Of a stretch of DNA of 11,879 nucleotides, positions 1 to 11,879 are shown in pieces. The position numbers were made by a program, and so were the translations under genes. The stretch is from Candidatus Eiseniibacteriota bacterium. GTDB taxonomy: Bacteria; JAFGKV01. The notes under the pieces were generated by a model that ran no database searches, was not told the origin of the DNA, and was given only the letters and a program-made list of their open reading frames with translations. Where the stretch lies: positions 1-11,879 of the forward strand of contig JALOPK010000074.1 of the NCBI GenBank assembly GCA_025453925.1, written 5' to 3'. The stretch's first letter is position 1; the number at the start of each line of letters is the position of its first letter.

Positions 1-190
1 CAGCCAGCGGCTGGCCGCCGGGATCGACGTAGACATGCAGCGGCACGAAGCAGACCGAGTCCGAGGAGCAGGTCTCCGGCGTCGCGACGACCTCAGTAGA
101 AAGGCATACGCCCCCGGAGAGAGCCGTAAGACACGCCACGAGTGCGATCAGGCGTCCCCGGCTCCGATCTGCTGCGCGTCGAGCGCTCAT
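1..190 (-). CDS. Secreted protein of unknown function, N-terminal fragment (possible cohesin-like domain)
   Basis: Only the first 63 codons are in the window; the gene runs off the left edge. The ATG at 190 is preceded by a strong GGGAGG ribosome binding site 4 nt upstream, and it starts 10 nt after the stop of the dockerin-like gene, so the two are probably co-transcribed and translationally coupled. The N-terminus is basic (MSARRAADRSRGR), followed by a hydrophobic stretch (LIALVACLTALSGGVCL) that looks like a signal peptide or lipoprotein-like signal. The mature part begins with two nearby cysteines (residues about 43 and 48) and a beta-strand-like segment, LHVYVDPGGQPLA. That segment resembles the first strand of cohesin-like beta-sandwich domains in planctomycete proteins, but too little is visible for a domain call. 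The coupling to a dockerin gene makes the idea attractive; it remains an inference. Confidence 0.7.
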   Translation of the reverse strand, partial: MSARRAADRSRGRLIALVACLTALSGGVCLSTEVVATPETCSSDSVCFVPLHVYVDPGGQPLA

Positions 191-200
191 CAGGCCTCCC

Positions 201-614
201 TCACTGCAGGGCCACCGCCGCTGCCGCGATCAGGTCAATGTCACTCTGGTCGACCTCGGCATCCCCGTTCACGTCCCAGCGGGCCTTGAGCGACTCCGAG
301 GCTTCGACGCGACGGGCAAGGGCAAAGGCATCGAGGATGTCCACCGCGCCGCTGCCATCCACATCGCCCACCGCTCCCTGCCGGGAGTGCGGGAGCAGGA
401 TCAGCACCGCAGCCGCCGCCGCGGCCAGCGGAGTCAGCCATCGCAGCGCCCGCATCCTTCCCCGCCGCGCGAAATGCCGCCAGGTCGCCTGCCGGACCCT
501 CTGATCCACTTCAGGCGTTACCGCGAGCGGGGCATGGTACAGCGAGCGGAGGTCCCGGACGAGGGCCGCCGGTGCGGTGAGATCGGTGTCCCGAATGCTA
601 TCGTTGTCGGTCAT
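201..614 (-). CDS. Single-pass membrane protein with extracytoplasmic dockerin-like domain; putative anti-sigma factor
   Basis: This 137-residue protein has three parts. A cytoplasmic segment (about 1-57) is rich in charged and helical residues and ends in a basic cluster. One membrane helix follows (about 58-74, LRWLTPLAAAAAAVLILLP). The C-terminal part carries two duplicated calcium-binding-like motifs: GDVDGSGAVDILDAF (Asp84, Asp86, Ser88, Asp95) and WDVNGDAEVDQSDIDL (Asp114, Asn116, Asp118, Asp125). This F-hand pair is the hallmark of type I dockerins, which bind cohesin domains. The positive-inside rule puts the dockerin outside the cytoplasmic membrane. The gene starts at an ATG with AGGAGA 5 nt upstream, 76 nt after the ECF sigma gene, which suggests the role of membrane anti-sigma factor. 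The usual zinc-containing anti-sigma motif (HxxxCxxC) is absent, so that role rests on gene order and topology. It could instead be a cell-surface anchor for a cohesin-bearing partner. Confidence 0.85.
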   Translation of the reverse strand: MTDNDSIRDTDLTAPAALVRDLRSLYHAPLAVTPEVDQRVRQATWRHFARRGRMRALRWLTPLAAAAAAVLILLPHSRQGAVGDVDGSGAVDILDAFALARRVEASESLKARWDVNGDAEVDQSDIDLIAAAAVALQ

Positions 615-690
615 GGTCGTCTCCTGTATGTGGAGTGCCGGCGGGGCACGAAAGGTTCACGATGGAGGCGCCCGGCTCCCCGCACGCGGA

Positions 691-1239
691 TCATTGGAGT
701 TCCTCGAAGTAGCGGAGAGTGCGTTCATCCTCGCGCAGGGCCTTCAGGGCGTTGTGCAGTCGCGATTTCACCGTGCCAACGGGGACCGCCAGCGCCGCGG
801 CGATATCTTCGAGCTTCATGTCATCGACGAACCGCATGAGCAACACCTCCCGGTGGATCGAGGGGAGCGTGGCGACCACGTCGGCGAGGCTGCGCTCCTC
901 GCCGCTCTCCAGGGGCGGATCACCGGCATGCAACACGATCTCTTCATCCAGGACGATCCGCCTGCTCTTCCGCAGCCTGCTCAGGGCGATGTTCTTGATG
1001 ACCGGATAGAGGAACGTGGTGAGCGCGGAAGAGAGGCGGAACCGGGGGAATCTGCCCAGCAGGTAGATGAACGCATCCTGGACGATATCCATCGCTTCGT
1101 CTTGGTTGCCGGTGAACCGAAAGGCGAGTTGGGCAGCCCAGGCCTTGTGACGCTGATACAGCGCATCGAATGCCCGGGGATCCCCCCGGTTCGATGCCTC
1201 CACCAGCTCTTCGTCACTACGGCCATTGGGTTTCGCCAC
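691..1239 (-). CDS. ECF-family RNA polymerase sigma factor
   Basis: The product is a sigma-70 family factor with only regions 2 and 4, the ECF layout. Region 2 (about residues 22-92) has AFDALYQRH, the core-binding segment DEAMDIVQDAFIYLL and the -10-recognition stretch TTFLYPVIKNIALSRLRKSRR. Region 4 (about 120-170) has LPSIHREVLLMRFVDDMKLEDIAAAL followed by the helix-turn-helix AVPVGTVKSRLHNALKAL. I chose the GTG at 1239 because it has GAGG 6 nt upstream and gives MAKPNGRSDEELVEASNRGD, a usual start for this family, and a typical 182-residue length. The reading frame stays open to a TTG at 1305, which would add 22 residues without similarity to the family. The gene leads a minus-strand run with the dockerin-like membrane protein and a secreted protein, so its activity is probably controlled from the envelope. 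It is divergent from the outer-membrane-type gene at 1586. Confidence 0.93.
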   Translation of the reverse strand: MAKPNGRSDEELVEASNRGDPRAFDALYQRHKAWAAQLAFRFTGNQDEAMDIVQDAFIYLLGRFPRFRLSSALTTFLYPVIKNIALSRLRKSRRIVLDEEIVLHAGDPPLESGEERSLADVVATLPSIHREVLLMRFVDDMKLEDIAAALAVPVGTVKSRLHNALKALREDERTLRYFEELQ

Positions 1240-3282: not shown

Positions 3283-4425
3283 CTACTCGTCTCCGCCCGA
3301 CGGACTCCCGCTCTCGTAGGTCATGCCCTTCCGTCGCGCCTGCTCCCGGAGCATCTCGTTGACCTTGACGTCGAAGACGCTGCCCTTACCCTCTCTGGCG
3401 AGGCGGGCCGTCTCGGCGGCGATGTAGTCCTGCCGCTGCTTCAGCAGGTCATTGATCTCGGCCTGAACCTGCTGCCGCTTCGTTGCCTTCTCCTTGACGA
3501 TCCGCTGCCGTTCCGCTGCATCGGCCTTCCGCAGCTCCTCGGGCAGGTCGGCATCCTTCAGCTCTTCCAGCCGCACGGTTCCATCTTCGAGGTCCTTGAT
3601 CAACTCGCCGCCGCCCTGCACCACGACGCCGGTCTTCGCGTTGAAGACCATCCGGTCCGCCGCGACCGCAGATGGCGCTGCTTCCGCTGCTGCCTGCTTG
3701 GCCCGAACCAAGTGCTTCGTCTCGTCGGAGCCGTAGGCGACCAACGTCGTGCCAAGCTCTACGTTCAGCTCGGAAAGGCGGGCATCCATCGGGGTCGAGA
3801 TAACCTGCATATCGCCGGTCTGCCCTATGGCCACATAGGTGCCCTCACCGAGGCTGGCGATCTCCCGCCAGATGGGCACGGTCGCCGTGTGGTCACCGCA
3901 CTGGATGGTGTTGATGATGAGGTCCTTCCGCACGGCCCGCTGACAGGTGTCGGGATACTTCACGTCATCCGAGTAGTCCATATGCGGCGGGCAGTCGCCC
4001 ACGAGGAAGATGATCTTCAGCACGTCTCTCTCGCCGCTCCACGACAGCTCTGACACTGCTTCATGCAGTGCCTGGTTCACGGACTCGGGCGTATCGCCGC
4101 CTCCATCGGCACGGAACTCATACAGGTTGGCGTAGACGGCATCTATGTCCTCGGTGAGGTCGAACAACTTAGTCACGTAGTCGTCGCCAAGGTCACGGTA
4201 TCCGACCAGCCCGATGCTGAGCCGAGGAGCCGGCTTCGTCTCGACCATCTGATTCGCGATTGACCAGATCTTGGCCTTGGCACCCTCGATGAGCCCGCTC
4301 ATGGAGCCGGTGGTGTCCAGCACGAAGCACACCTCGACACGGGGCGGATTGTCAGGTCCACTGGCGGTGGCCAGCGCGGGCAGGGCGTGGAGAGCAGCCA
4401 GGACAAGGGCGATGGTTCGGATCAT
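3283..4425 (-). CDS. Secreted von Willebrand factor type A (VWA) domain protein with C-terminal coiled coil
   Basis: The 380-residue product begins with a signal peptide (MIRTIALVLAALHALPALATA). A VWA domain fills about residues 30-215. Its metal-ion-dependent adhesion site is visible: D37-T-T39-G-S41 in FVLDTTGSMSG, T112 in GGGDTPESVNQAL and D144 in IIFLVGDCPP. The usual Ser at the second coordinating position is Thr, which should still bind a divalent cation. After the domain comes a segment with a short beta-rich part (FNAKTGVVVQGGGELIKDLEDGTVR) and a charged helical stretch with coiled-coil character (about 295-345), ending in NEMLREQARRKGMTYESGSP. The start has AAAGGAG 6 nt upstream. It lies 160 nt downstream of the VIT-VWA gene on the same strand and may be in the same transcription unit, although a tandem-repeat mosaic separates them. 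Likely role: periplasmic or surface protein binding; the ligand is unknown. Confidence 0.92.
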   Translation of the reverse strand: MIRTIALVLAALHALPALATASGPDNPPRVEVCFVLDTTGSMSGLIEGAKAKIWSIANQMVETKPAPRLSIGLVGYRDLGDDYVTKLFDLTEDIDAVYANLYEFRADGGGDTPESVNQALHEAVSELSWSGERDVLKIIFLVGDCPPHMDYSDDVKYPDTCQRAVRKDLIINTIQCGDHTATVPIWREIASLGEGTYVAIGQTGDMQVISTPMDARLSELNVELGTTLVAYGSDETKHLVRAKQAAAEAAPSAVAADRMVFNAKTGVVVQGGGELIKDLEDGTVRLEELKDADLPEELRKADAAERQRIVKEKATKRQQVQAEINDLLKQRQDYIAAETARLAREGKGSVFDVKVNEMLREQARRKGMTYESGSPSGGDE

Positions 4426-4585: not shown

Positions 4586-6877
4586 TCAGTCGATGACTTC
4601 ATACACCGTGTCGTCCAGCAGCACCTGAACGTTGCGGCCGACGGACAGCCACTGGGCGGCGTTGGGGTGCTTCGCCAGCAACGCGAAGTACTCGACAGAG
4701 CCGATCTTCACCTGCACCCGGCGGGCATCCGTCTCGGTCTGAACATTGGCATCTATCCACTGACCGCCGTTCTGATAGAACGTCCGCCCTCCCACGTACC
4801 GATTCTGCTTCTGGGTAACGGCCTGCTCCATCCTGTCGGCCACGGGGGATGCCACCGTCGCGCGACCGCCCCGTAACATGGGAGTGTTGGCGATGCCGGG
4901 CGCCGACATTCCCTTGGCCCGCTTGAGGGCGTCGAGGCCCTGGGCGCCGCCCACGGCGGCGTCGCCGGCAACGGTGGTCGGAAGCTGGCGGTACATACGG
5001 CCCGTGGCCTCGTGGAGCTCGGCGTCGAACTGCGGAAGACTGCGCTCCGCCTGGGCCAGGCCCCGGCGATCTTCATCCTCCACGATGAGGTAGGCGGTGT
5101 AGGGCGTGACGATCCCATATTTCCTGGCCAACTCGACGACCTCGTCCCGGAGTTCCGCGCTTTCGCCATTGAGCCGGATCTGATCCAAGAGGAACCCCAC
5201 ACGGCGGGTTGCCCATAGTCTCGGGATGAAGGCGTGCTCGATGGCTGCCCGGGGGAAGCCAACTTCATGGGTGAAGCTGCGGGGTGTGCCGTTCACGGAC
5301 CCCTTGATAGTCACCGCCGCATCGCCCGTGCCCGAGTACCGGCCCAGCACCACCAACTGATCGCCCCTGAAGAGATCAGGCAGCATTCCGGGCACCAGCT
5401 TTGATGGCCGTATGCCTGCCGTGATCACAAGCTCGAGGTCGGTGAGCACCGGTTCATTGATCTTGGCATAGAAGCTGGAGACCTTGATCTCGATGTCTTC
5501 ATCGGGCAGTACATACTGGCTGGCCGCCCGGGTCTTCTCGGTGATGAGGTCCAGGAGATGGGTGTTCACGTCGGTGCCGATCCCGAAACAGAACACACGG
5601 ATCGTCTGGTCACCGATGCGCTTCGTGACGTCGCTCACGATCTCGTCGGTGGAGGTCGGGCCGATGGTCGGCTTGCCGTCGGTGAGGAACACCACGACGT
5701 AGGGTCTGCCGTCACGGGCCTCGCCCGAGTGCTTCAACGCCGTGGCGAGCGCCTCCTGAATGGCGGTTCCCCCGATGGGTTTAAGCCCTTCCACGAAGGT
5801 TTCGGCCTTGGCCCGATTCACGCTGTTCGCGGGCACCAGGCCCTCGAACAGTGCCTCCGCCTCGGTGGAGAACCTGACCACCTCGAACCGGTCGCCGTCA
5901 TTGAGGTTCCTCAGGCAGAGGGCAAGGGCACGCTTGGCAGCATCGATCTTGCCCCGTTCGGCCATCGAACCCGAGGTGTCCAGCACGAAGACGACGTCCT
6001 TCTCGACCACCCGCTGCCGCTCGTGCTGCACCGACGGCGAGGCCAGGAGGAGGAAAAACCCTCCGTCGCGGTCCTCACTCTCACGGTACGTGAGTACGTC
6101 GATTCCCACGTCGGACCTGGCTTCCGGCGCAAAGAAGAGCTGGAAGTCCGTGTCGGGTCGCACGTTGTCGGCCTCGTAACCGATGGTTGCTTTGGAAGAT
6201 CCGTGACGCGTGATCTCGACGGTGTGGCTGGGGCAGAATACCGACTTGACGCCCTTGGCACATGAGAGATCTACCTTCACCAAGACGTTTCGCAGCGGCC
6301 GCGCGGAGAACTTCTCGGTATTGAGCGGATACACGTATGACACCATCCCCGCATCGTTGCGGAGCAACTCGGTGTAGGAGAGCCTGATGCGCTTCTCGCT
6401 GTGTGGTTCGATGGGGTACACGCGCACCTTGAACAACGACTGACCGGCATACTCCAGAAGGGCCGGGTCTCTCATCCGCCGGACGATGTCCTCATAGATC
6501 TGACGCGCCTTGTCCGCGTCGAGCAGTTCTGCCTCGGCTTCCTTGCCGTTGATGTCCATGGAGAACCTGTCGATCCGGGCGCCCTTGGGAACCGGAAACA
6601 AGTACAACCCCTCCAGGCGCTGGCTGTTAGGATTGTAGAAAACCTGATCGACGTTGGTGACGGCCACCTGGTCATCGATTCGTGCCGTCACGTGGTGGTA
6701 CCTCACCTCCAATGGCGCGAACTCGTGGTGCGGGAGGGGCCAGGGGTGAGGCGGTCGTGGAGGATGCGGGGGCATGGGAGGGGGATGGGGGATGATGATG
6801 AGTCCATCCGCCGCCGCGGCGACAGCGAGGACCGCGACGAGCACGGCGATCCAGCGAGGGCGTGCGACGCGTATCAT
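4586..6877 (-). CDS. Secreted VIT-VWA protein (vault/inter-alpha-trypsin domain plus VWA domain)
   Basis: The 763-residue product has a signal peptide (about 1-23), a Pro/His-rich linker (about 30-52) and a VIT domain (about 52-180) with VFYNPNSQRLEGLYLFPVPKGA and LLDADKARQIYEDIVRRMRDPALLEY. A beta-rich section precedes the VWA domain (about 293-475). All metal-site residues are present: D300-T-S302-G-S304, T371 in IGGTAIQEAL and D400 in FLTDGKP. A conserved helix follows, ending in LARKYGIVTPYTAYLIVED (about 583-601). The C-terminal region (about 690-763) has NRYVGGRTFYQNGGQWIDA and a final beta-type segment. The architecture is common in bacterial envelope proteins that are thought to bind partners through the VWA site. 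The start codon has AAAGGAGG 8 nt upstream; an overlapping two-codon frame, ATG-ACA-TGA, sits just before it. An ECF-like promoter lies 39-66 nt upstream. Family and location are certain; the ligand is not known. Confidence 0.95.
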   Translation of the reverse strand: MIRVARPRWIAVLVAVLAVAAAADGLIIIPHPPPMPPHPPRPPHPWPLPHHEFAPLEVRYHHVTARIDDQVAVTNVDQVFYNPNSQRLEGLYLFPVPKGARIDRFSMDINGKEAEAELLDADKARQIYEDIVRRMRDPALLEYAGQSLFKVRVYPIEPHSEKRIRLSYTELLRNDAGMVSYVYPLNTEKFSARPLRNVLVKVDLSCAKGVKSVFCPSHTVEITRHGSSKATIGYEADNVRPDTDFQLFFAPEARSDVGIDVLTYRESEDRDGGFFLLLASPSVQHERQRVVEKDVVFVLDTSGSMAERGKIDAAKRALALCLRNLNDGDRFEVVRFSTEAEALFEGLVPANSVNRAKAETFVEGLKPIGGTAIQEALATALKHSGEARDGRPYVVVFLTDGKPTIGPTSTDEIVSDVTKRIGDQTIRVFCFGIGTDVNTHLLDLITEKTRAASQYVLPDEDIEIKVSSFYAKINEPVLTDLELVITAGIRPSKLVPGMLPDLFRGDQLVVLGRYSGTGDAAVTIKGSVNGTPRSFTHEVGFPRAAIEHAFIPRLWATRRVGFLLDQIRLNGESAELRDEVVELARKYGIVTPYTAYLIVEDEDRRGLAQAERSLPQFDAELHEATGRMYRQLPTTVAGDAAVGGAQGLDALKRAKGMSAPGIANTPMLRGGRATVASPVADRMEQAVTQKQNRYVGGRTFYQNGGQWIDANVQTETDARRVQVKIGSVEYFALLAKHPNAAQWLSVGRNVQVLLDDTVYEVID

Positions 6878-7242: not shown

Positions 7243-8832
7243 TCAGGCGCGGGCGCGGAACACCTCATCCAGGGCTTCCACCACCATCGGCTGAAACTGC
7301 GTTCCCGATCCCCGTTGCACCTCCGCGAGCCCTTCCGATATGGTCTTCGGTCGCGAGTAGAGCCTCGACGGCGATGTCATCGCTTCGAACGCGTCCGCGA
7401 CCGCCACGATCGACTCCTCTTTGGTGGTTTGTTTCAGCCCGCGGGGGTAGCCTGTGCCGTCCGGGCGCTCGTGGTGGCCGCCCGCGACGCGCGCCAGGGT
7501 CCGGAGCCCAAGGCCGTCCAGCAACTCCTCGCCGCGGGTGGTGTGTGAGCGCAGAATGCTCCAGTCCCGATCGGAGAGCGGGGAGACCTTGTTCAGGATG
7601 CACCAGGGAACGAGAAGCTTCCCGAAGTCGTGGAACAACCCATCCAGTTCCACCCGCTTCACCCGCCGTACTCTCGGCTCACCGTTTCCCAGAACCCTTA
7701 CGGCGATACGGCCCGCCAGGGCCGACACCCGCAAGGAGTGGTCTCCTCCCGTATAGGTATCCTTGCTTTGGAGGAGTTCGAGCACCTGCATGACCACTGG
7801 CTCGCCTGTGGACTCAAGGGCATGATGGGGATCCGGGGCCTTGGACACGAGATCCCGCAGAATGTCAACGAATACTTCGACAATGCGGAGCTCCTGCCGG
7901 GGATTGGCGACGAGAAGGCTCGACTGCATCGCTTTCCTCGCCCACTGAACCGCAGCGGCAGTCTCCCCGCGGGAAGCATAGACCTGTGCCCACCTCCGAT
8001 AGATCTCGGGGAGAAGCTGCTCTTGCCCCGCTCGCATGCACTCGGTCTCCAGCGGCGCGAGGATCCGCTCGGCCTTCCGGTGGTCGCCGAGGCGTACGCA
8101 GACCTCTGCGCGATTGCCCAGGGCGATCACCCGTGTCCGGGCATGGAGGGGAAGGGACAGCGCCTCCTCGATTGCGGCTGTCGCACGTTGCAGTACCGGC
8201 TTGTCGTTGCCGGTTGCCCGCGCCATGCGGAGGAGCACCCACCCCGCATTGTTGGTCAGCAGCCCCCGCACCTCCTGGGGGAGGAAGGAGTCCATCTCCG
8301 CGAAGACGGCTCTCGGGCGCTTCTGGACCAGGTTCATGATCTCACCGTAGATCTTGAGGGCCTCGCCGTATTGGCCCGTCTCCGTCAGCACCGCGGCGCG
8401 GTTGAGGAGAATCACCGGGGTCTGCGACAGCGGATCCGACGCCGGGATTAGTTCGAGCGCCTGACAGAAGAGCCTCTCGGCATCCTGGAATGCGCCTTGA
8501 TCGAAGCAGGCGAGCCCCGCGGCGTTGAGCATGGTCACGGCGCTGATCGGTCTGCCGTCCTCCAGGAAGACCCGGTGGCTGTGGAGGGCAATCGTCTCAG
8601 CCGCCGATGGGTCTCCAACGGCGCGAAGGTGGGCCGCGAGCGCGCACAGCGTCTCGAAGCCAAGGGGAGGGCCCGTGTCATGCTGAACTTCGGCAACGAG
8701 ACTCTGAATGCACTCTGACGCCGCCCGATGCTCTTCGTGGCTCAGTCTGGGCAATGGCGCGATGGCCATAACTCGAGCAGCAAGACCATCAGGGGCACTG
8801 GATGCATTTGTGCCGTCGTGCCTTTCGGTCAT
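7243..8832 (-). CDS. TPR-repeat HD-GYP domain protein (putative cyclic di-GMP phosphodiesterase), downstream copy
   Basis: I place the start at the ATG at 8832 because GGAGGAGG lies 5 nt upstream; this gives 529 residues. An upstream in-frame start at 8892 lacks such a site. There is no signal peptide or membrane segment. A helical TPR-like array covers about residues 60-330 (for example AVTMLNAAGLACFDQGAFQDAERLF and GWVLLRMARATGND). An HD-GYP domain covers about 345-525. The expected catalytic residues are present: H365, H401-D402 with K405 in LFHDFGKLLVP, H430, H453-H454 in HHERPDGTGYPRG with GYP at 461-463, and D480 in VADAFEAM. HD-GYP enzymes hydrolyse cyclic di-GMP. The TPR array probably senses a protein partner. 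It is the tandem paralog of the protein at 9257-10870, similar over its full length at roughly half the positions. No GGDEF partner is in the window. Confidence 0.93.
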   Translation of the reverse strand: MTERHDGTNASSAPDGLAARVMAIAPLPRLSHEEHRAASECIQSLVAEVQHDTGPPLGFETLCALAAHLRAVGDPSAAETIALHSHRVFLEDGRPISAVTMLNAAGLACFDQGAFQDAERLFCQALELIPASDPLSQTPVILLNRAAVLTETGQYGEALKIYGEIMNLVQKRPRAVFAEMDSFLPQEVRGLLTNNAGWVLLRMARATGNDKPVLQRATAAIEEALSLPLHARTRVIALGNRAEVCVRLGDHRKAERILAPLETECMRAGQEQLLPEIYRRWAQVYASRGETAAAVQWARKAMQSSLLVANPRQELRIVEVFVDILRDLVSKAPDPHHALESTGEPVVMQVLELLQSKDTYTGGDHSLRVSALAGRIAVRVLGNGEPRVRRVKRVELDGLFHDFGKLLVPWCILNKVSPLSDRDWSILRSHTTRGEELLDGLGLRTLARVAGGHHERPDGTGYPRGLKQTTKEESIVAVADAFEAMTSPSRLYSRPKTISEGLAEVQRGSGTQFQPMVVEALDEVFRARA

Positions 8833-9256
8833 GCGACCTCCTCCCGTGGCACGCCCTGTCCCGCACAATGAGAGCGCCTCTACAACCTGCACGCCGTGCC
8901 CCGGCGGTCAAGCTTCTGGTTCATCGCCCCAATCAGGACGATCGTGTTCCATCACCGATTTGAGTCGGTTGCAGGTCCAGCACGGGACGTGCCGCGGTCT
9001 CGGCATCGAGGGGAGCGGCGCTGCACGCCGGACCTGCGCCTTGCGCCGTCGAAGAGGGGCTCCAGAGGAGACGGGCGCTCCGCTATCGCCATGGTACTCG
9101 GATTCACAAATACGAGCGTGTTTGCATCCCGGGTCCGCCAGCCGGCGGATTGCTCGATCGGTGAGATATCGCAACGGATATCTGCCCTCCTCGCTTGCCC
9201 GCTGACCGGTCGCCCCCATGCTCTCGGTACGTGACCGTACGAATGAACCAGTGTGC
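8833..9256. other. Intergenic region between the two HD-GYP paralogs
   Basis: At 424 nt this is the longest gap between confident genes. One minus-strand frame (8908-9219) is a possible small gene and is listed separately. The region also holds an outer inverted repeat, GCAGGTCC (8971-8978) with GGACCTGC (9030-9037), enclosing GCCGC (8991-8995) paired with GCGGC (9015-9019) and an inner CTCG-GCAT-CGAG hairpin (8999-9010). A structured leader for the downstream HD-GYP gene is conceivable, but pairings of this size arise by chance in GC-rich DNA. On the minus strand TTGACC near 8907 could be a -35 element, but no good -10 follows. Confidence 0.4.
8908..9219 (-). CDS. Possible small Cys-containing protein between HD-GYP paralogs (doubtful)
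   Basis: An ATG at 9219 opens a 103-codon frame in the gap between the two HD-GYP genes, same strand. The ribosome binding site is weak (GAGAG, 1-2 nt upstream, too close). The predicted protein contains EGRYPLRYLTDRAIRRLADPG, two cysteine pairs (CKHARIC and CWTC) and an acidic tail (MEHDRPDWGDEPEA). These parts look protein-like. The middle is rich in Arg, Pro and Ser, as expected from a chance frame in GC-rich DNA, and the frame also continues upstream into the HD-GYP gene as a clear shadow. No family is recognised. Confidence 0.2.
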   Translation of the reverse strand: MGATGQRASEEGRYPLRYLTDRAIRRLADPGCKHARICESEYHGDSGAPVSSGAPLRRRKAQVRRAAPLPSMPRPRHVPCWTCNRLKSVMEHDRPDWGDEPEA

Positions 9257-10870
9257 TTAGCTGATGTGCGATAACTCCGGAGTGACTCGGGTTTCGTCGA
9301 CCACTGCCACCAGCGCCTCGACGATGTCCGGCCGGAATTGAGTGCCCGAACCGCGCTGCACCTCCGCCAGCGCTTCGGCGAAGGTCTTCGGCAGAGTGTA
9401 GAGCCGGGATGGCGACGCCATGGCGTCGAAGGAATCTGCGGCCGCGACGATGGCTGCCTCGATGGTGGATCGCGTATCCCCGCGAGGGTAGCCTGCACCA
9501 TCCGGCCGTTCATGGTGGCCGCCCGCCACCAACGCGAGGCTCCACAGGCCCAGATCGCGCAGGATCGCCTCCCCGGTGGTCGTGTGCGCCTTCAGGAGCT
9601 CCCAGTCCCTCCGCGAGAGACGAGGCACGCGGTTGAGCAGGCTCCACGGGATGCGTAGTTTGCCCACATCGTGGAAGAGGCCCCCGAGCTCTACCCGTTT
9701 GACCCACTTCTGCTGTCCCGGCCCATCCCCTACCATCCTGCACGCGATCCGCCTCGCCAGCTCGGCGACGCGCCGTGAGTGACTGCCTCCGGTATACGTG
9801 TCCTTGCTCTCCAGCAGCGCTACGATCTGTGAGACCACCGTCGCCCCCGAAGACTCCAACGCGAGGTACGGATCGGCCGCTCGTGACACGACGTCATGGA
9901 GGATGTCAAGAAACACCTCCACGATTCTGAGCTCCTGCCGGGGGTTTGCCTCCTGGATGCTCGTCTGCATCGCCTTCAGGGTCCACTCAATGGCGGTGTC
10001 GACATTGCCCATGGCGGCCTCAAGCTGTGCCCTCCTCCTATACGCCTCCGGGAGCAGCTTCTGGTAGCCGGCGCTGAGGCATTCGGCCTCCATGGTGGTC
10101 AGCGCCGCCGCGGCAGATTCCGTCTCTCCGAGCATGATGCTCGCTTCCGCGCGATTTCCCCAGGTGATGAGCCGGGTCCTTGGGTGCAGCGGGAGCTGCA
10201 GAGCGGCATCGAAGCTGGTCACCGCGCGTGCGATCAGCTCGCGATCGTTCCCGGCGGCTCGGGCGGAGCGAAGCAGCACCCACCCGATGTTGTTGGTCAC
10301 CAGCCCCCGCACTTGCTGGGGGAGAAGTGCATCCCGCTGACCATAGCTCCCCGGCGGCGAGGAGTCGAGTTCACGGATCGTCCGCTCATACAGGAGAAGC
10401 GCCTGTTCGTATCCTCCCATTTCTGTCATCACGGTGGCATGATTGATCAAGAGAACCGGGGTCTGGAGCCGCGAATCCGGGGACGGGATCAGGCTCAGAG
10501 CCTTCATGAAGTGATGCCCCGCATCCTCCAACGCTCCTTGGTCGAAGCAGGCAAGGCCCGCCATGTTGTACAGCGCAATGGCATTGGTGGTCTCGGACCG
10601 CTCCAGGAAACGATGGGCCGCCATGTCCGCGAGCGTTTCCGCAGCAGCAGGGTCGCCGATGGTGCGGAGATGGGATGCCACGGCTGCGAGCTCGTCGAAG
10701 TCGAGGCGGTGAGGAGGGGCGGTGGCGAACGCATCGAGCAACGCCTGGATCAGATCGGAGGCCGACCGGTGCTCGTCATTCGAGAGACCGGGCAGGGGTT
10801 GGAGATCTCTGACCTTCACAGTTAGCATCATCGTGTCCGGCGAACCCGGTACGCGAGATGGCTCGTCCAT
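9257..10870 (-). CDS. TPR-repeat HD-GYP domain protein (putative cyclic di-GMP phosphodiesterase), upstream copy
   Basis: The 537-residue product starts at an ATG with AGGAGG 4 nt upstream. It is soluble, with a TPR-like helical array (about 60-325; ALYNMAGLACFDQGALEDAGHHF, VLLINHATVMTEMGGYEQALLLYE and AYRRRAQLEAAMGNVDTAIEW are good repeats). The HD-GYP domain spans about 345-525. Catalytic residues are H364, H400-D401 with K404 in LFHDVGKLRIP, H429, H452-H453 in HHERPDGAGYPRG (GYP at 460-462) and D479. Compared with the downstream paralog the blocks ANPRQELRIVEVF, SKDTYTGG and EVQRGSGTQF are identical, while the segment around 165-185 and the last 15 residues differ. Expected function: hydrolysis of cyclic di-GMP gated by TPR contacts. 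A hairpin, GCGGCG-GTA-CGCCGC (10883-10897), lies right upstream of the ribosome binding site and might tune translation. Confidence 0.94.
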   Translation of the reverse strand: MDEPSRVPGSPDTMMLTVKVRDLQPLPGLSNDEHRSASDLIQALLDAFATAPPHRLDFDELAAVASHLRTIGDPAAAETLADMAAHRFLERSETTNAIALYNMAGLACFDQGALEDAGHHFMKALSLIPSPDSRLQTPVLLINHATVMTEMGGYEQALLLYERTIRELDSSPPGSYGQRDALLPQQVRGLVTNNIGWVLLRSARAAGNDRELIARAVTSFDAALQLPLHPRTRLITWGNRAEASIMLGETESAAAALTTMEAECLSAGYQKLLPEAYRRRAQLEAAMGNVDTAIEWTLKAMQTSIQEANPRQELRIVEVFLDILHDVVSRAADPYLALESSGATVVSQIVALLESKDTYTGGSHSRRVAELARRIACRMVGDGPGQQKWVKRVELGGLFHDVGKLRIPWSLLNRVPRLSRRDWELLKAHTTTGEAILRDLGLWSLALVAGGHHERPDGAGYPRGDTRSTIEAAIVAAADSFDAMASPSRLYTLPKTFAEALAEVQRGSGTQFRPDIVEALVAVVDETRVTPELSHIS

Positions 10871-11005: not shown

Positions 11006-11879
11006 CTATTCACCGCAGTTGCACGGCATTGACTCGACGTCAAGGCCCAATGTCCGCCAGACCTCCTCGCTCTCCTCACAGAGGGCGACCGGGCAGACCT
11101 CTCGAAAGATAGACACCGCTGGACGATAGAGGCCGAGCCGGACATCCCATGGGTACCTCGCCAGACCCTTCGGATCATCCGGCGGCTCCAGCCCGGAGAA
11201 CAGGCCGTTCCCCATCACCCGCAGAAGATTGGCATCCGCGCGAAGCGTCCCGAGGGTCACCCGCTCCGGTGGAAGCGTTGCGAGCGCACGGGCGATCCCG
11301 TCGTGATCGTAGCCCGCGATCATCGGATCGATTCTCATCCGCACACGCCAGCCCGCAGCGAGCAACGCCGACGCAGCCTCCATTCGCTCGTCCACAGACG
11401 CCGCGCCGCCCTCGTAGCGGCGCGCCGCATCGGGGTTCGTCACCGAGAACGAAACAACGACGTTTCGGCACGGGGAGGAGTCCAGCAAGGGCCGGCACTC
11501 CCGGATGCCGCCCTTGGTGACCAGAAGCAGCGTGTGCGGCCGACCGGCGGCGTGCTGCCTGAAGGCATCCACCAAGCGCACGGCGAGGGGCCGAGCTTCC
11601 TCAAACACCAGGCTGTCGCAGAGATTCCCCGTGTTCAGCACGTTGGTTTCGAGGCCGTCTCGGCCGATCCACCGGCGTGTCTCCTCGATGATGCGATCGG
11701 TGTTGGTGAACGCTTCGGGACGGGGGAGGTACCAGAACGATGATTTGAGGTAACAGTAGCTGCACTGGGGAGAGAAGGCACACCCATTGGCGTGGGCCAG
11801 GACGAAGAAGTTCGGGCACACAGTCTTGGGGGGCGTCGTGCGAAATAGCTCGATGAACCGGCTTTGCCGTTCACGAAGG
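11006..11879 (-). CDS. Radical SAM protein of the spore photoproduct lyase-like family, 5'-truncated by the window edge
   Basis: The frame is open to the right edge, so the start lies outside; the GTG at 11821 is an internal Val codon. Just before it the frame reads SRFIELFRTTPPKT, which continues naturally into VCPNFFVLAHANGCAFSPQC. The cluster-binding motif is C-x5-C-x2-C (GCAFSPQCSYCYL). Next come LNTGNLCDSLVFEEARPLA, the strand motif TLLLVTKGG, VVVSFSVTNPD, and MRIDPMIAG in the second half of the barrel. The C-terminus has VCPVALCEESEEVWRTLGLD and ends in CNCGE. Spore photoproduct lyases repair UV damage in spore DNA, and this wider family is spread in non-sporulating bacteria with unknown substrates. 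The canonical motif is C-x3-C-x2-C, so the spacing differs here. The stop is followed by a hairpin. Family call is strong; DNA repair activity is uncertain. Confidence 0.9.
   Translation of the reverse strand, partial: LRERQSRFIELFRTTPPKTVCPNFFVLAHANGCAFSPQCSYCYLKSSFWYLPRPEAFTNTDRIIEETRRWIGRDGLETNVLNTGNLCDSLVFEEARPLAVRLVDAFRQHAAGRPHTLLLVTKGGIRECRPLLDSSPCRNVVVSFSVTNPDAARRYEGGAASVDERMEAASALLAAGWRVRMRIDPMIAGYDHDGIARALATLPPERVTLGTLRADANLLRVMGNGLFSGLEPPDDPKGLARYPWDVRLGLYRPAVSIFREVCPVALCEESEEVWRTLGLDVESMPCNCGE

Follow-up and report, generated by a model that had tools for sequence, protein, structure and literature searches.

An ECF sigma factor operon encoding a dockerin-bearing membrane protein and a secreted cohesin-like protein in a Candidatus Eiseniibacteriota bacterium

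Gene content and conservation of the locus

The stretch of DNA analysed here (the window) is the entire contig G000:C468 of a Candidatus Eiseniibacteriota bacterium, with a length of 11,879 nt. At its left end the minus strand encodes an ECF sigma factor, a single-pass membrane protein with a dockerin domain and the start of a secreted protein, as judged from Pfam matches, the transmembrane stretch and the reading frames. All three had been named in the original prediction and were found as described; a fourth gene of the operon, which codes for a VIT/vWA protein, and a promoter element had been missed.

More than 450 genomes were searched, and only four of them have the operon, in a total of five copies. 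Besides the window these are L008 from the closest named relative, a Candidatus Fermentibacteria MAG of the same genus; L043 from genome G002 of the same family; a second copy in genome G001; and L075 from genome G288. The searched set contained three genomes of the window's phylum. Among 386 genomes distributed across the domain, G288 was the one additional positive, and none was found in the phyla of G060, G041 and G018. L075 was placed in a separate phylum, as the search of the G288 phylum gave two genomes, none of them from the phylum of the window. The system is either rare or too divergent for detection by these searches.

The order of sigma factor, transmembrane dockerin protein, small secreted protein and VIT/vWA protein is the same in L008, L043 and L075. 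The second copy in G001 is split between two contigs, of which C253 (L044) ends past the sigma gene and C53 (L076) starts before the dockerin gene. The two contig ends have 44 identical bases in common, and since this piece resembles a dispersed repeat we take the join as likely without regarding it as proven. Between the dockerin gene and the third gene there is either an overlap of a few bases or a distance of no more than about 10 bases, and the third gene overlaps the VIT/vWA gene, which comes next in every complete copy and lies beyond the end of the window in the copy studied here. The VIT/vWA protein is exported, its vWA domain keeps the DxSxS metal site, and carboxypeptidase-regulatory domains are present on the proteins of two copies. 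Against TIGR03788 the L043 protein scored 516 bits, just under the cut-off of 552 bits. Pairing of sigma factor and dockerin as well as the three-gene order are thereby conserved in both phyla in which the family was found, in line with the original prediction. A sequencing artefact as the source of this arrangement was rejected.

The remainder of the window holds several other genes. Divergent from the sigma gene, a Gcw_chp-type protein (PF09694) is encoded at 1586-2293 on the plus strand, with a homologue at the same place in L008. On the minus strand, a vWA protein (3283-4425) and a VIT/vWA protein (4586-6877) are separate from the VIT/vWA gene of the operon itself; two adjoining paralogues that combine TPR repeats with an HD domain (HD_5) lie at 7243-8892 and 9257-10870; and a radical SAM protein resembling spore photoproduct lyase (PF20903) occupies 11006-11878 and is cut off at the contig edge.

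Sigma factor and promoter element

The sigma factor gene (691-1239, minus strand) encodes 182 aa from a GTG start, with an alternative longer TTG-start frame up to 1305. Pfam matches over the cut-off were obtained for Sigma70_r2 (PF04542, 1.8e-15) and Sigma70_r4_2 (PF08281, 1.4e-14), no sigma-3 domain was matched by Pfam in this protein, and the match to TIGR02937 reached 86.5 bits at a cut-off of 42.9. By these profiles the protein is classed as an ordinary ECF type with regions 2 and 4 and without region 3. In a tree of 23 ECF sigma factors those of all five dockerin operons formed one clade with a support of 98/94. The sigma factor of the window is 82-83% identical to that of the relative species, and the L044 sigma factor was grouped together with that of L043, to which it is 61% identical. 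A second ECF operon, made up of a sigma factor, a zinc anti-sigma factor and a small protein which we take to resemble YbjQ, is conserved in all three genomes (L047 1493-2882, L049 7589-8918 and L048 6665-8000), with the zinc anti-sigma factor observed in the L047 and L049 copies.

Between the sigma gene and the dockerin gene an ECF-type promoter element, TGAACCTTT-N14-ACTCCA, is located at 631-659 on the minus strand, and the same element at the same distance was present in all five operons. Its general form, (T/G)GAACCTTT-N14-RCTNNA, lies 43-47 bases upstream of the dockerin gene at each of the five loci. GAACCTTT occurred ten times in loci that partly overlap and add up to about 338 kb; five of these occurrences lie here at nearly equal distance, and the full pattern GAACCTTT-N14-RCTNNA was found in these five loci only; as the -10 part was derived from the same five loci, only the -35 part counts independently. 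GAAC followed by a spacer of 15-16 bases is typical of ECF promoters, which makes transcription of the operon by the sigma factor it encodes probable. An approximate match to the element on the minus strand at L076 4766, about 60 bases upstream of a gene presumably coding for a serpin-like protein, marks a possible member of the regulon.

Upstream of the sigma gene, a GCAACCTTT block common to the window and L008 lacks a conserved -10 part on the sigma strand and was rejected as a sigma promoter. In the region that separates the sigma gene from its divergent neighbour, ACAGCTAGGC-N16-GCAACCTTTC occurs on the sigma strand with equal spacing at 1442-1480 of the window and at 2584-2620 of L008; this block may be a promoter or an operator for either flanking gene.

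Dockerin membrane protein

The second gene (201-614, minus strand; coding part 204-614, stop codon 201-203) encodes an anti-sigma-type membrane protein of 137 aa. The protein matched Dockerin_1 (PF00404) with 36.3 bits at a cut-off of 22.9, and the domain, located at 228-368 on the minus strand, contains two complete calcium loops of 12 residues, DVDGSGAVDILD and DVNGDAEVDQSD. Dockerins of the PDB were found with the dockerin family profile (best 3.8e-5). On the Pfam match and both loops the domain is assigned to type I, and binding of a cohesin is predicted. A short cytoplasmic part is followed by a single hydrophobic stretch at residues 59-75, and because six positive residues precede this stretch and one follows it, the dockerin is predicted to lie outside the cell.

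Between the window species and the relative species the dockerin proteins are 61-62% identical. Four of the five copies have two complete calcium loops; L075 has lost the first one and retains the subsequent helix (VDIVDAF). Few other dockerins occur in these genomes: Pfam gave one to four matches per genome, and the single match in G002 is the dockerin of the operon. A 9211-residue frame on G000:C124 (L094, L105) has two Pfam cohesin matches and half a dockerin, and is unrelated to the operon.

Probable anti-sigma role of the dockerin protein

Three of the five dockerin proteins start with an N-terminal domain containing Hx3Cx2C (HVKACPRC in L043, HIRTCPEC in L076 and HAAGCRRC in L075), the signature that marks zinc-binding class I anti-sigma factors (ASDI; PMC7406223). 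The motif is missing from the proteins of the window and L008, as the original prediction had stated for the window; about 19 residues including the zinc ligands are gone in these two, while the membrane-proximal segment still aligns, so that by alignment the zinc segment is lost in the genus of the window. The motif is not obligatory, being present in about 56% of class I anti-sigma factors and absent from about 44% (PMC7406223). In the alignment, the membrane-proximal segment occupies the place of helix 4, which in class I anti-sigma factors contacts sigma region 2 (PMC7406223). The dockerin protein also has a gene adjoining the sigma gene and a transmembrane helix, two traits of class I factors of the membrane type.

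For comparison, a profile was built from 17 ordinary anti-sigma factors of the same genomes. The N-termini of the zinc-type copies (L043, L076 and L075) matched this profile with a probability of 95.9%, as against at most 5.8% for column shuffles, and all five N-termini together with 96.8%. The window-type pair (window and L008) alone gave only 40%, with a shuffle maximum of 21%, so the anti-sigma role of the window copy rests on its relatives. Nearly all other ECF sigma factors examined in these genomes are followed by a zinc anti-sigma factor without a dockerin. Since three divergent copies start with a zinc anti-sigma domain, the assignment of the dockerin protein as anti-sigma factor of the adjoining sigma factor is well supported, and inhibition of the latter is predicted.

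Third protein

The third frame (2-190, minus strand) starts with an ATG at 190, 10 bases past the dockerin stop codon, and has a signal-peptide-like beginning; it runs off the contig end, so that the protein is represented in the window by its first 63 residues only. This part matched the third-gene family with 5e-22, and in a search of the window's own genome with that family the window itself was the sole match.

The original prediction had raised the possibility of a cohesin-like third protein, and profile-profile comparison bears this out. In profile-profile comparison with 30 Pfam cohesins collected from genomes, the family matched with a probability of 95.5-95.6% (E about 1e-8) over 107 columns. 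Controls consisting of the reversed profile and 100 column shuffles gave a maximum of 4.2%, and VIT, vWA and carboxypeptidase-regulatory profiles all stayed below 1%. When single sequences were ranked against the cohesins, the third proteins of L043, L075 and L076 came out on top of 237 ORFs of the loci with 84-89%; that of L008, closest to the window and the most divergent copy, was next but with just 8%.

The Pfam cohesin model PF00963, in contrast, gave no match at E 10 to the third proteins of L043 and L008 (hmmscan), and no PDB sequence was found with the third-gene profile as query. With regard to the nine-stranded jelly-roll of cohesins, AlphaFold2 models of the L008 protein were all beta and reached a pLDDT of only 46 (with the partial sequence of the window) and 50 (mature domain alone). 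With these low-pLDDT models Foldseek and VIA-align returned a mixture of beta-sandwich proteins (FlgD, carbohydrate-binding modules, viral capsids), with no cohesin among the matches listed. As PF00963 fails to match, the label cohesin-like and not cohesin is used, and the third protein is described as a putative secreted single-domain cohesin-like protein.

Proposed mode of action and alternatives

The dockerin, rare in these genomes, adjoins a cohesin-like gene in two phyla, and the two proteins are for this reason proposed as partners. A chance association was rejected because the order is kept across two phyla and dockerins are rare; from gene order and homology it is unlikely that the two were paired by chance. 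In the reading we prefer, to which we give an even chance, the locus is an ECF/anti-sigma operon with the dockerin as outer sensor and the co-encoded cohesin-like protein as its likely ligand; somewhat more tentatively we propose that the cohesin-dockerin pair serves as an outer sigma switch in which retention or release of the sigma factor depends on the secreted partner.

In such a switch, the cytoplasmic part of the dockerin protein would retain the sigma factor at the membrane, while outside the cell the calcium-binding dockerin would dock the secreted cohesin-like protein. An alteration of this complex by ligand level, calcium, competition or engagement of the VIT/vWA protein, which probably belongs to the same surface complex, would then change the anti-sigma factor or lead to its degradation. 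The sign of the effect may go either way, as docking could stabilise the anti-sigma factor or trigger its proteolysis. RseB stabilises RseA, and degradation of the anti-sigma factor is the other known route. The freed sigma factor would transcribe the operon of dockerin, cohesin-like and VIT/vWA genes from the GAACCTTT promoter, and we infer that the system could in this way be autoregulated.

The same parts could be arranged differently. Instead of sensing, the dockerin might act as a tether by which the anti-sigma factor is fixed, within the envelope, to the cohesin-like protein and the VIT/vWA protein, with the VIT/vWA protein or a protease reading the signal. The position of the VIT/vWA gene, next in all complete copies and overlapping the third gene, and the retained DxSxS metal site of the vWA domain speak for such an arrangement, which we consider unlikely but well worth keeping in mind; it requires the same binding as the switch, and the results do not separate the two. 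The binding itself is put in question if the dockerin has another cohesin-bearing or an unrelated protein as its partner and the third protein is a beta-sandwich with a different role. That the third protein was missed by Pfam and the PDB sequence search would fit, as would the two Pfam cohesin matches elsewhere in G000, in the frame of 9211 residues. However, G001 and G002 are without any Pfam cohesin and the dockerin and third genes nevertheless stay together, and with a cohesin profile match of 95.6% and clean controls we judge a different partner distinctly unlikely.

Little probability is given to a dockerin that works alone as a calcium sensor, its calcium-dependent folding setting the state of the anti-sigma factor: the two complete loops of four copies would agree with this, but L075 has lost the first loop and kept the VDIVDAF helix, which fits a binding surface better, and the third gene would be left without explanation. 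Least of all do we expect the window copy to be decaying, with its zinc domain lost and its cohesin-like partner drifted, so that it may no longer signal. The absence of the zinc segment from the window and L008 and the divergence of the L008 cohesin-like protein, the strongest among the copies, would agree with decay; against it stand the open frames conserved between two species (82-83% for the sigma factor, 61-62% for the dockerin protein), the retained promoter element and the roughly 44% of class I anti-sigma factors that do without the zinc motif (PMC7406223).

Relation to known systems

The preferred reading, with dockerin and cohesin-like protein as a sensor pair, fits a known kind of system, an ECF sigma factor with a membrane anti-sigma factor. 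With class I anti-sigma systems (PMC7406223) the operon shares the ECF sigma factor beside a single-pass protein, the Hx3Cx2C motif on the cytoplasmic side (three of the five copies) and the ECF-type promoter ahead of the anti-sigma gene; it differs in the outer dockerin, the gene of a likely ligand next to it and the loss of the zinc segment in the window's genus. The SigI/RsgI pairs of cellulosome-making clostridia (PMC3413522, PMC11557425), to which the original prediction had drawn a parallel, likewise have an anti-sigma factor in the membrane that carries a binding module outside and is encoded beside its sigma gene, and to this extent the parallel is apt. SigI, however, is a different type of sigma factor, and RsgI bears an N-terminal domain of its own, senses polysaccharides through outer modules (CBM, PA14 or similar) and has neither a dockerin nor a co-encoded cohesin (PMC3413522, PMC11557425). 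As the sigma factor of the operon is an ordinary ECF type and Pfam gave no RsgI_N match to any of the five dockerin proteins, the comparison with SigI/RsgI does not go beyond analogy.

Dockerins and cohesin-like modules are shared with cellulosomal proteins and with the known single-cohesin proteins (PMC11557425), but the operon has no enzyme-bearing scaffoldin and its dockerin sits on a regulator. A cellulosome, for which many dockerin enzymes and a multi-cohesin scaffoldin would be expected, was rejected on the one to four dockerin matches per genome and the lack of Pfam cohesins in G001 and G002. In RseA/RseB, too, a periplasmic partner encoded beside the anti-sigma gene acts on the outer part of the anti-sigma factor; to our knowledge RseB is not cohesin-like and RseA carries no dockerin. 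The fourth gene resembles the VIT/vWA family of TIGR03788, annotated as marine proteobacterial sortase target protein, and differs from it by its linkage to an ECF operon and by the carboxypeptidase-regulatory domains in two copies.

We found no anti-sigma factor with a dockerin in the open-access papers covered, and those that join dockerin, cohesin and anti-sigma factor treat cellulosomes and SigI/RsgI; as the literature covered is open-access only, novelty is not proven. If the proposal is true, it would be the first use of cohesin and dockerin in transmembrane signalling found in that literature, and a protein-docking sensor would join the known inputs of anti-sigma factors. It would also offer a calcium-dependent switch of natural origin for reconstruction in a laboratory strain. 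Cohesins and dockerins occur in many bacteria without a cellulosome, and the operon provides a compact, conserved case in which a signalling role for them can be tested.
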